Below, in pieces: positions 7,110 to 20,600 of a stretch of 38,439 nt of DNA (positions are counted from its first letter, which is position 1; every line of letters starts with the position of its first letter). Both the position numbers and the translations under genes were made by a program. Location: the IMG/VR virus record IMGVR_UViG_3300042890_002106, positions 1-38,439 of that record; one strand, written 5' to 3'. Below the pieces are notes generated by a model, which made no database searches, was not told where the DNA came from, and worked only from the letters and a program-made list of their open reading frames with translations. This DNA comes from a virus.

Positions 7110-8415
<1,306 letters not shown>

Positions 8416-18165: not shown

Positions 18166-18372
18166 TCACCCCTCCCGCGGCGTTGCCGCTTCCTGTTGAT
18201 CCGCCAGATAATCCCACCAATCCGCCACTTGCCTGAGCCACTTCGCGGCCTTGCGCCACTCTTGCGGCTGGCCCTTGATGCCGTCCGCAATCGGCACTTC
18301 CACAGACGCCTCCAGCGGCTGGGCCTCGCCGCGAATCGATCCGCGGTGCCGAAGGTCGCGTGGTTTCTTCAT
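18166..18372 (-). CDS. small hypothetical protein, 68 aa
   Basis: A 68-aa protein from ATG 18372, overlapping the upstream stop (ATGA). It contains a basic N terminus (KKPRDLRHRGS) and an amphipathic aromatic helix EWRKAAKWLRQVADWWDYL. No family is recognised. The coupling and the downstream GTG start suggest it is expressed. Confidence 0.55.
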   Translation of the reverse strand: MKKPRDLRHRGSIRGEAQPLEASVEVPIADGIKGQPQEWRKAAKWLRQVADWWDYLADQQEAATPREG

Positions 18373-18731
18373 AGCCCCGTCGCCGTCGTGCCGGGCTTGT
18401 ACGGGCCGTTGCTGTAGCCGAGATCGAGTTGAATCAGCCTGACGGTAGCGCCCCGCAGTTCCGCTTGCGACAGCAGCCGCCACAACGATCCGCTGCCAAC
18501 GAACACCCAGGTGGTCGGGTCGCCGGTCGGCACCGAGTCGGGAAAGCCCCGCCAGTCGGCGTAGCCGGGGAACGTTTGCCCGTTGATCGTGACCGTCACC
18601 CAGCCCCTGAACAGCGTCGTCCGTGGGATCACCGCCGGGACCGGCGACTTCCGAGGGGCCATCGCCCCCTCGCCGGACGCACCAACAAGAACCAAAGCCG
18701 CCACCGCTACCAACGTCGAGAGAAAACGCAT
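18369..18731 (-). CDS. small exported protein of unknown function
   Basis: A 120-aa protein with a clear signal peptide: MRFLSTLVAVAALVLVGASGEGA, with a likely cleavage near residues 20-24. The mature part is beta rich with Trp and Gly (RGWVTVTINGQTF, WVFVGSGSLWRLLSQ). AAAGGA lies 10 bases before the start. Export of a phage-encoded protein from the infected or lysogenic host is unusual and fits a lysogenic-conversion (moron-type) gene, although the region is in the lytic-direction operon. Confidence 0.65.
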   Translation of the reverse strand: MRFLSTLVAVAALVLVGASGEGAMAPRKSPVPAVIPRTTLFRGWVTVTINGQTFPGYADWRGFPDSVPTGDPTTWVFVGSGSLWRLLSQAELRGATVRLIQLDLGYSNGPYKPGTTATGL

Positions 18732-18791
18732 CGAGAAGAATCCTTTCGAAAAAAGTCGTGGCCGCCGTCGTGACGCACCACCCGAATCAAG

Positions 18792-18856
18792 ACGCGATGG
18801 AGGAATCGAACCTCCGTTTCCCGCAAGGCGGGATCCTGCCACTGGATGAATCGCGT
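18792..18856 (-). tRNA. tRNA-like element with collapsed anticodon loop
   Basis: This 65-nt minus-strand sequence folds as a tRNA. A perfect 7-bp acceptor stem is formed by ACGCGAT and ATCGCGT. A 4-bp D stem (ATCC/GGAT) encloses AGTGGCA, and a 5-bp T stem (GGAGG/CCTCC) encloses TTCGATT. The anticodon arm is abnormal: CCCGC and GCGGG leave only a 3-base CTT loop, or a 3-bp stem with a 7-base loop GCCTTGC that has C instead of U at position 33. Four or so loop bases seem lost, so no sure anticodon can be given. No CCA is encoded. It may be a decayed tRNA, a tRNA mimic or a processing site. It lies between two secreted-protein genes. Confidence 0.6.
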
Positions 18857-18897
18857 GCGCACCGTCGGCCGCAACCGGCTGGGTGACGGAATGTTGT

Positions 18898-19260
18898 TCA
18901 CCGCAGGCTGTAGCGCCGGCAGGCATACCACCGGCCATCCCGCCCCTGTGCCGTGCCCTCCTCAAGCACCGTGCCGCCGTTGTTGCAGCAGGCCGCCAGA
19001 GCCGAGGCCGGACTGCCGCCAACGCCGACGCCTTCGTAGGTCGCGCCGTGGCTTGCAGCGTGAACCATCGAGCCGCTCGCCGCCATCGCCTCGGCGTGGC
19101 CTTGAGCCCCGCGGGTCACCGTCCTGGTGCTCGCGGACGAGCAGCTCCCGCCCGTGCAGGTGCTCGCCCTGGTCGTCGTCACCGAGCGTTTCCAGGGGCC
19201 GGCGTGAGCCGAGGTCGAGAGGATCACCAGAGCCACCACCGCAAGAAATCCATTTCGCAT
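18898..19260 (-). CDS. exported Cys-rich protein (internal start of the DUF551 frame)
   Basis: A 120-aa product starting at ATG 19260, seven bases after a GGAG. It begins MRNGFLAVVALVILSTSAHA, a textbook signal peptide with AHA cleavage. The mature part has a Cys/Ser/Gly stretch, AQGHAEAMAASG, a GVGVGGSP motif, a CC pair and a WYACRRY ending. The pattern of a Gly-His block followed by CC and W-Y-x-C-R-R-Y recalls small secreted proteins I associate with planctomycete genomes, which is recollection and not a search result. Confidence 0.65.
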   Translation of the reverse strand: MRNGFLAVVALVILSTSAHAGPWKRSVTTTRASTCTGGSCSSASTRTVTRGAQGHAEAMAASGSMVHAASHGATYEGVGVGGSPASALAACCNNGGTVLEEGTAQGRDGRWYACRRYSLR

Positions 19261-19464
19261 CGCATCACTCCGTTGAGGCAGTCGCGGCATCGGCATCCAC
19301 CACTCTGGTGTGTACCCAGCCTCGACCAATTCCGGCCGTGGATAAATCCACGTCACCGTGTCGAACACATTGGAAATCGCACACACGGGCCACGACTTGC
19401 CGTCGCTCACCAGACAGTTCTGGTAGTGCTCAGGCAGATGTTCGTCGATCCGTTTCCACATCAT
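18898..19464 (-). CDS. DUF551-like domain fused in frame to an exported protein
   Basis: The full frame of 188 aa starts at ATG 19464, overlapping the clamp stop. Its first 64 residues are DUF551-like: WKRIDEHLPEHYQNCLVSDG at the start and EWWMPMPRLPQ at the end, the normal W-x-P-x-P finish of that domain. There is no stop between the domain and the signal peptide at residue 69. The same bases in the next frame contain TGA just before the internal ATG. Either a single-base change has fused two coupled genes, or both products are made. The exported part is described separately. Confidence 0.6.
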   Translation of the reverse strand: MMWKRIDEHLPEHYQNCLVSDGKSWPVCAISNVFDTVTWIYPRPELVEAGYTPEWWMPMPRLPQRSDAMRNGFLAVVALVILSTSAHAGPWKRSVTTTRASTCTGGSCSSASTRTVTRGAQGHAEAMAASGSMVHAASHGATYEGVGVGGSPASALAACCNNGGTVLEEGTAQGRDGRWYACRRYSLR

Positions 19465-20600
19465 TCCGCCGCCAGAGGCATGACGACAGCGAGGGCTTCT
19501 TCGTGACGCAGAACCACCGCAGACTCCGCGTCGGCGGCGAACACTTCGATGATGGCACCCGGGTCAACATTGCGAAGCCAGCCGCCCACGAACGTCGGAT
19601 CGAGCCGAACGGTGGCCTTGATGCCGGCCATGGTGAGCTCTGCAGTCACCGTCGACTCGCCGTAGTCAGCCGAACGCGCCGCCAGCATCAGCCCGTTGTC
19701 GACGAACGTGAACTGCACGCCGCGGCTGGTCTCGTTGACGACGATGGACGCCTGCCGAACAGCCGCGAGCAGCTCGCCGGCCGTCACCTCGGCGTGGGCC
19801 GGTGGTGCCCGAAACACCTTGTCGGTGCCCGTGCCGAACTCGGGCCGGATGTTGGCCGGGATCACCTCCTGCCACCGCGGAAAGCGCCCGTCGAGCAGTC
19901 GGGCCCAGAGCGTCACGCCGTCCATGTCGGCCACGAGCTCGTTGCCACTGAGGCTGAGCTGAATGGCGTCGTCGGCGTTGGTCGCGGCGAGCTTGGCCAG
20001 CGTGTTGATGGCCTGGGCCGGGATGATGCATGACGCGTCGTCCACCGCCTGATCCACCTCGGCGTAGGCCACGTGCAGCCGCCGGCCGTCCGTAGCCACA
20101 AACGCCACGTCGCCCTTCTTCTGCTCGACCAGCACCCCGCCGAGGGCGTATCGGCTTGAGTCGTCGTCGGTGGCTCCGACGACGCTCTTGACCGCGCGGC
20201 AGAACTGGTCGACCGGGAGCCTGAGGAATGGCTTGCCGGCGTCGACGACACGCTCGGGCCATTCGCCGTCGATCACCGGCAGCGTCCACTGGCCGCGGCC
20301 GGCTGTGATCCGCACGTTGTTGCCGTCGCGGGCAAACGACACGTCGCCCACCGCCATGCCCGCGATTGCCGCCAGCCGGCCGTGCGGCACGACGTACGGT
20401 TCAAAATCGGCCCCCTCGAGGTCGACGAGCACCCGCAGCTCCCCGTTGAACGCCTCAGCCCCGTAGGCCCCGAGGCGCACGCCAGAGAACGTCGCGTGCT
20501 TCGCGTTGATCGCCGGTGCCACCGCGGTCAGAGCCGCTCGCAGATCCGGTGCCGAAATTGTCCAGGCCGTTGCCGGCCGTCTCTTCGCTGCTGTCGTCAT
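19461..20600 (-). CDS. dnaN: DNA polymerase III beta-clamp homologue
   Basis: A 379-aa sliding clamp, normal length for DnaN. Recognisable segments are SSRYALGGVLVEQ and ATDGRRLHVAYAEV (middle domain), DGRFPRWQEVIP (third-domain entry) and a C-terminal VVMPLAAE that matches the M-P-x hydrophobic end of beta clamps. The clamp tethers the polymerase to DNA. A phage-encoded copy with no polymerase gene nearby suggests that the host replicase is recruited to viral DNA or that clamp-dependent processes are redirected. It lies downstream of replication initiation genes. Confidence 0.92.
   Translation of the reverse strand: MTTAAKRRPATAWTISAPDLRAALTAVAPAINAKHATFSGVRLGAYGAEAFNGELRVLVDLEGADFEPYVVPHGRLAAIAGMAVGDVSFARDGNNVRITAGRGQWTLPVIDGEWPERVVDAGKPFLRLPVDQFCRAVKSVVGATDDDSSRYALGGVLVEQKKGDVAFVATDGRRLHVAYAEVDQAVDDASCIIPAQAINTLAKLAATNADDAIQLSLSGNELVADMDGVTLWARLLDGRFPRWQEVIPANIRPEFGTGTDKVFRAPPAHAEVTAGELLAAVRQASIVVNETSRGVQFTFVDNGLMLAARSADYGESTVTAELTMAGIKATVRLDPTFVGGWLRNVDPGAIIEVFAADAESAVVLRHEEALAVVMPLAAE

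Follow-up and report, generated by a model that had tools for sequence, protein, structure and literature searches.

In mammals, anticodon-less RNAs with the shape of a tRNA serve as processing signals, and in plant RNA viruses, they form the 3' ends. To our knowledge, no conserved, gene-like tRNA element lacking an anticodon is known from DNA phages, and the open-licence literature that we searched contained no description of such a phage element. The mammalian RNAs mascRNA and menRNA, which are placed 3' of another transcript (MALAT1 and MEN-beta), combine an acceptor, a T arm and an elbow with a compact-looped arm that is equivalent to the anticodon arm but carries no anticodon; RNase P and RNase Z recognize the elbow of these RNAs and cut them (PMC11693755). 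The tRNA-like structures (TLSs) of plant viruses are also viral tRNA mimics, and an N-1:N73 pair makes them substrates of HisRS (PMC9976931). A tRNA-like domain without an anticodon is present in tmRNA as well. Finally, some phage-encoded tRNA bodies have a modified anticodon region but keep a working anticodon and decode (PMC10264068).

Here we describe an element from an uncultured phage lineage that, judging from comparison among its relatives, is a selected, anticodon-less tRNA mimic. It resembles the known mimics but lies outside every tested family because the definitions of canonical tRNA, tRNA-His, tRNA-Sec, tmRNA and TLS each fail on a tested feature. With canonical tRNAs, the element shares the acceptor, D and T arms, U8-A14-A21, G18-U55, G19-C56 and the Levitt pair, but it lacks the 7-nt loop, U33 and the anticodon, and about half of its relatives have a D-loop hairpin. 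A G-1:C73 pair, a hallmark of tRNA-His, is frequent in the family, but the window copy has C.C at this position, and the GUG anticodon is absent; an 8-bp acceptor, as in tRNA-Sec, is found in many relatives, although there is neither a long variable arm nor a UCA anticodon and the tRNA-Sec score is far under the gathering threshold. Unlike tmRNA, the 67-nt element has no mRNA-like domain or tag, and its D arm is intact; unlike TLSs, which form the 3' end of an RNA virus genome and whose acceptor is pseudoknotted, it is internal to a DNA phage operon and has a plain 7-bp acceptor. The likeness to mascRNA and menRNA is one of anatomy only, with no homology claimed, and the D arm that is reduced in these mammalian RNAs is intact in the phage element. 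In contrast to a tRNA pseudogene, structural constraint is present among the relatives.

A tRNA-shaped element in a phage genome

The window, that is, the whole stretch of DNA that was analyzed, is a 38,439-base IMG/VR virus record. It encodes capsid, portal, terminase and tape measure proteins, RecT, RusA, a replication initiator and a sliding clamp and thus comes from a tailed phage. On the minus strand, positions 18857-18791 encode a 67-nt RNA (tRNA positions -1 to 73) with a cloverleaf fold. C-1 (18857) is followed by the 5' strand of the acceptor stem, ACGCGAT (18850-18856), and, after TC, by the D arm, ATCC-AGTGGCA-GGAT (18833-18847), with A14, G15, G18, G19 and A21 in place. The reduced anticodon arm, CCCGC-CTT-GCGGG (18820-18832), has 5 bp and a 3-nt loop; a 4-nt variable loop, AAAC, leads to the T arm, GGAGG-TTCGATT-CCTCC (18799-18815), and to the 3' strand of the acceptor stem, ATCGCGT (18792-18798), with the discriminator, C73, at 18791. 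All pairs form in the acceptor (7/7), D (4/4) and T (5/5) stems, which had been called perfect from the sequence of this locus, and the D and T loops are canonical. The potential eighth pair, -1:73 (18857:18791), is C.C in this copy, compared with G-C in 19 of the 25 aligned elements. CCA is not encoded, as C73 is followed by TTG.

The distance between the D and T arms in class I tRNAs is 22-23 nt, compared with 17 nt in the window, so that 5-6 bases are missing rather than about four as had been estimated in the earlier note. An assembly error as the origin of the short arm was ruled out because the same short arm, including the identical sequence CCCGCCTTGCGGG, is present in independently assembled contigs from other metagenomes.

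The RNAfold minimum free energy of the element is -27.3 kcal/mol (z -2.25), with a cloverleaf-like fold, and a strict cloverleaf scan returned one match in the window compared with none in 300 dinucleotide shuffles. ARAGORN detected no tRNA or tmRNA in the window, and Rfam found nothing there at gathering score; the top permissive match, tRNA-Sec, reached 20.1 bits against a cut-off of 47. A covariance model (R2) scores the element at 80.9 bits, a value that is not independent since the training set of the model includes the window copy.

Relatives and conserved structure

A search with the sliding clamp identified two relatives. In both, the corresponding position holds a similar element that has a hairpin inserted in the D loop and an eighth acceptor pair. 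Pattern scans of IMG/VR, together with the covariance model, brought the number to about 25 distinct elements, so the same element does recur in related phages, as the earlier note had proposed to check. A scan that permitted normal-length anticodon arms returned short-armed members only, the new ones being L132, L141 and L116. When IMG/VR loci were fetched via the upstream exported protein alone, the element lay downstream of that gene in 26 of 26, including 9 contigs missed by the element scans (L191, L192, L193, L195, L200, L201, L203, L213 and L214). Because the loci behind the protein alignment all had the element, more distant relatives of the protein may lack it. Phages that encode related terminase or ParB-like proteins but not the exported protein also lack the element, which may therefore travel as a cassette.

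DNA similarity searches against phages and plasmids yielded short matches only, mostly, to the T arm. The pattern scan of genome_contigs gave three matches, two of them in Thalassococcus halodurans, that were judged to be due to chance, so that scan revealed neither a cellular host nor a prophage. The short-arm form may exist outside this phage lineage as well, since two other phage contigs of larger size (L181:971-1037, 50 kb, and L189:2278-2344, 105 kb) contain a relative with the short arm CCTC-AATT-GAGG, close to a further tRNA-like T arm. The more distant L116 element (7868-7952) comes from a lower-GC phage, in which it adjoins a nuclease-like gene; this tRNA-like element has a D-loop hairpin, its anticodon loop is 6 nt long, and A-1 pairs with U73.

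In a MAFFT alignment of 25 distinct elements with 22 pairs, 97.6% of the paired cells are indeed paired, and compensatory changes, on both sides, occur in 14 of the 22 pairs. In 500 shuffles, pairing, double changes and covariation score all stayed below the values of the real alignment, and shifting the partner by 1-3 columns reduces pairing to 38-50%. An alignment of 19 that includes more distant copies shows double changes in 16 of the 22 pairs. All 25 elements are identical at U8, A14, G19, A21, G53, U54, C56, G57, A58 and C61. The Levitt pair 15-48 is G-C in 12 elements, A-U in 12 and A-C in one, and thus covaries in 24 of the 25; kinship inflates such covariation counts, and the switch from G-C to A-U at this pair perhaps represents only a few events. 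L003, the sole element with a changed position 18, is also the only one in which the tertiary partner, position 55, is changed. A coding explanation for the element was rejected because its lengths, 64-97 nt across the family, differ by non-multiples of three. For single type B copies, RNAfold often prefers non-cloverleaf folds, so that the case for this type rests on comparison. The shared short arm, the covarying arms and the invariant tertiary core indicate that the family is not a product of decay. Constraint may be relaxing in the window copy, with its C.C at -1:73, and in the elements nearest to it, L192 and L200, each of which has one extra base in the T arm.

Between the D and T arms, 24 of the 25 elements have a spacer of 17, 15 or 14 nt; the sole spacer of normal length (23 nt), in L203, forms an irregular stem and lacks U33. 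The anticodon arms have 5 bp with a 3-nt loop (CCCGC-CTT-GCGGG, CTCGC-CAT-GCGAG, CCGGC-TCT-GCCGG), 4 bp with a 3-nt loop (TCCC-AAT-GGGA) or 3 bp capped by UUCG (CCC-UUCG-GGG), with CCC-TGCG-GGG as a further short form. A canonical 7-nt loop with U33 on a 5-bp stem is found in none of the 25, and U33 itself is absent throughout, which bears out the proposal that this is a tRNA shape without decoding ability. The arm appears to act as a capping hairpin. In about half of the elements, a variable hairpin is located inside the D loop, between A14 and G18G19. ARAGORN calls of tRNA-Pro and tRNA-Ala, which take the type B hairpin for the anticodon arm of a class II tRNA, were rejected because GTTC/GAAT, with A14, G18G19 and A21, clearly forms a D arm and because the loops of the inserted hairpins vary in size and contain no consistent anticodon.

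Of the 25 elements, 20 carry G-1 and 23 carry C73; position -1:73 is G-U in L213 and A-U in L091 and is mismatched in L192 and L200 (C.C, as in the window) and in L093 (A.C). The type B D arms (TAGTTC...GAATC) resemble that of the phage tRNA-His of L143. In L190 and L191, the upstream proteins are near-identical, whereas the element types and D-loop hairpins differ, which suggests, from sequence comparison, that the element is exchanged or remodelled fast; the protein tree of the upstream gene is too weakly supported to date the changes of element type.

Gene neighborhood

In the window, the element lies between the stop codon of the 18898-19464 ORF and the start of the 18369-18731 ORF, both, like the element, on the minus strand. 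The upstream ORF (18898-19464) encodes a small exported protein, the exported form of which probably starts at the ATG at 19260 (MRNGFLAVVALVILSTSAHAG...). The protein belongs to a conserved orphan family that is closely linked to the element, ends in CCNNGG...GRDGRWYACRRYS and showed no match in Pfam, PHROG, phage or plasmid searches. The DnaN-like phage sliding clamp that served as the query for the first relatives is encoded at 19461-20600, also on the minus strand. The 40-nt spacer between the upstream stop codon and the element (18858-18897) includes CCGTC...GACGG complementarity. The downstream small ORF (18369-18731), with no match in Pfam or PHROG, has a translation with a signal-peptide-like N terminus. 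The leader between the element and this gene (18731-18790) contains a block, GTGCGTCACGACGGCGGCCACG, that is conserved in the window and in many relatives. No intrinsic terminators were found on the element strand in this region of the window.

The element is intergenic and in the sense orientation in all loci. The distance from the stop codon to the element is 6-8 nt in most of them and about 40-130 nt in the rest, and the long spacers contain further hairpins, except that L003 has a second tRNA-like unit there. That unit (L003:7724-7802), just upstream of the element, has an intact acceptor and T arm, a 3-bp D stem and a long 'anticodon' stem, made up of 7 bp and additional inner pairs, in which no anticodon is evident. 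In L178 (5806-5878, minus strand), an initiator-like tRNA-Met(CAT) with a C1xC72 mismatch is located 5 nt downstream of the element, and L002 ends inside apparently the same tRNA-Met gene (7614-7640). Placement between two exported-protein genes, as originally described, holds for the window and most relatives, but either neighbor is replaceable while the element stays: the downstream gene is swapped for the tRNA-Met in L178 and, by gene names read from translations, for a C5-methyltransferase-like gene in L090 and for an SSB-like gene in L213 and L214, and the upstream gene is replaced in L089, L094 and L141.

A candidate processing signal and its alternatives

The existence of the element, its conservation, covariation and tertiary core, and its place in the gene order are observed. 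Of the functions suggested in the earlier note, the one that fits this anatomy best is a putative RNA processing signal between exported-protein genes; a decoy for aminoacylation or RNase P, also named there, is possible too. We assign a probability of roughly 45% to a mimic within a phage operon that is cut out by host RNase P and by RNase Z or 3' exonucleases, separating messages; co-transcription, cleavage, and cleavage as the selected function are all inferred. Under this scenario, the element would fold into an L-shaped tRNA core within a polycistronic phage mRNA, its anticodon arm cut back, for want of any need to decode, to a minimal capping hairpin. RNase P would then cut the 5' side, and RNase Z or 3' exonucleases would cut the 3' side, recognizing the elbow and the acceptor rather than the anticodon, which would free the message for the upstream exported protein, typically, 6-8 nt past its stop codon, from the downstream message and release a short tRNA-like RNA. 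In the 25 elements, the features used by tRNA-maturation enzymes are all kept and the decoding part is gone, which makes proteins that bind via the elbow and the acceptor, such as RNase P and RNase Z, the likely readers. The sense, intergenic placement just past a stop codon, the lack of a detected intrinsic terminator and the 26/26 linkage favor this explanation, and persistence through changes of either neighbor gene is as expected of a general punctuation mark. The C.C at -1:73 in the window and the extra T-arm base in L192 and L200 count against it, as does the possible spread of the element as a cassette. Whereas processing by RNase P and RNase Z is demonstrated for mascRNA and menRNA (PMC11693755), for the phage element, we infer it.

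The complete tertiary core, the variable D-loop hairpin and the -1:73 pairing exceed the strict needs of RNase P and would suit a trans-acting RNA too. The main rival to a processing signal is, accordingly, an RNA that works in trans, either histidylated or as a decoy. One possible, although unlikely, form of it is a dedicated anticodon-less phage tRNA with an 8-bp acceptor, histidylated by the host HisRS, that would serve as a synthetase sink, as an amino-acid donor outside translation, as a stable charged RNA or as protection from tRNA-targeting immunity; the D-loop hairpin would then be a contact that evolves fast. HisRS is the candidate synthetase given the frequent G-1:C73, it charges 8-bp microhelices and 13-bp minihelices with this pair (PMC9976931), and the likeness of the type B D arms to a phage tRNA-His points the same way. 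However, the window, L192, L200, L093 and L091 lack G-1:C73, CCA is not encoded, and mascRNA, a similar mimic, is not aminoacylated (PMC11693755). It is somewhat more doubtful that the element is an anti-defence decoy, that is, a tRNA body that anticodon nucleases cannot attack and that ties up host proteins sensing or cleaving tRNA. The variability of the D-loop hairpin could then be the mark of an arms race, and hairpins and arms do differ among viruses with nearly identical upstream proteins, such as L190 and L191; phage tRNAs are known to evade tRNA-targeting defences via altered anticodon loops (PMC10264068). The published evasion route is, however, replacement of the cleaved tRNA, which an RNA without an anticodon could not provide, and a decoy has no known defence partner and leaves the link to a single upstream gene unaccounted for.

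The remaining explanations treat the element as a tRNA or a part of one. A decayed tRNA gene drifting without function, as had been suggested, would account for the absence of an anticodon, for the -1:73 mismatch in the window and for the extra T-arm bases, but is very improbable in view of the compensatory changes, the invariant core and the presence of the element in all 26 loci; for the family as a whole, covariation refutes it. We give equally little credence to the idea that the element decodes as an unusual tRNA, with an anticodon stem of 3 bp and GCCTTGC, including C33, as its 7-nt loop. This alternative to the 3-nt loop had been put forward for the window, its base count works for the 17-nt forms, and the outer three pairs are those that covary; nevertheless, the putative anticodon varies (CTT, CAT, TCT, GCT), U33 occurs in 0 of 25, and the UUCG, TCCC-AAT-GGGA and CCC-TGCG-GGG forms (the 11-nt arms among them) leave almost no stem for a 7-nt loop. 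The few type B copies called by ARAGORN need other anticodons and other folds. An attP remnant of integration, copied from a host tRNA, is the least credible origin. Pieces of tRNA are common in phages, but no integrase was found among the subset of window proteins tested, and attP sites hold the 3' part of a tRNA rather than a complete, covarying cloverleaf inside an operon.

The element is probably under-counted because standard tRNA finders overlook it or assign false isotypes. Evolution keeps the tRNA shape in these phages for some non-decoding job. If the element is a processing signal, the host tRNA-maturation enzymes would be the scissors of phage mRNA; if it acts in trans, it would represent a phage RNA of a new class, with tRNA-handling proteins as its targets. 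The family also provides a natural experiment on which tRNA parts remain necessary in the absence of decoding.
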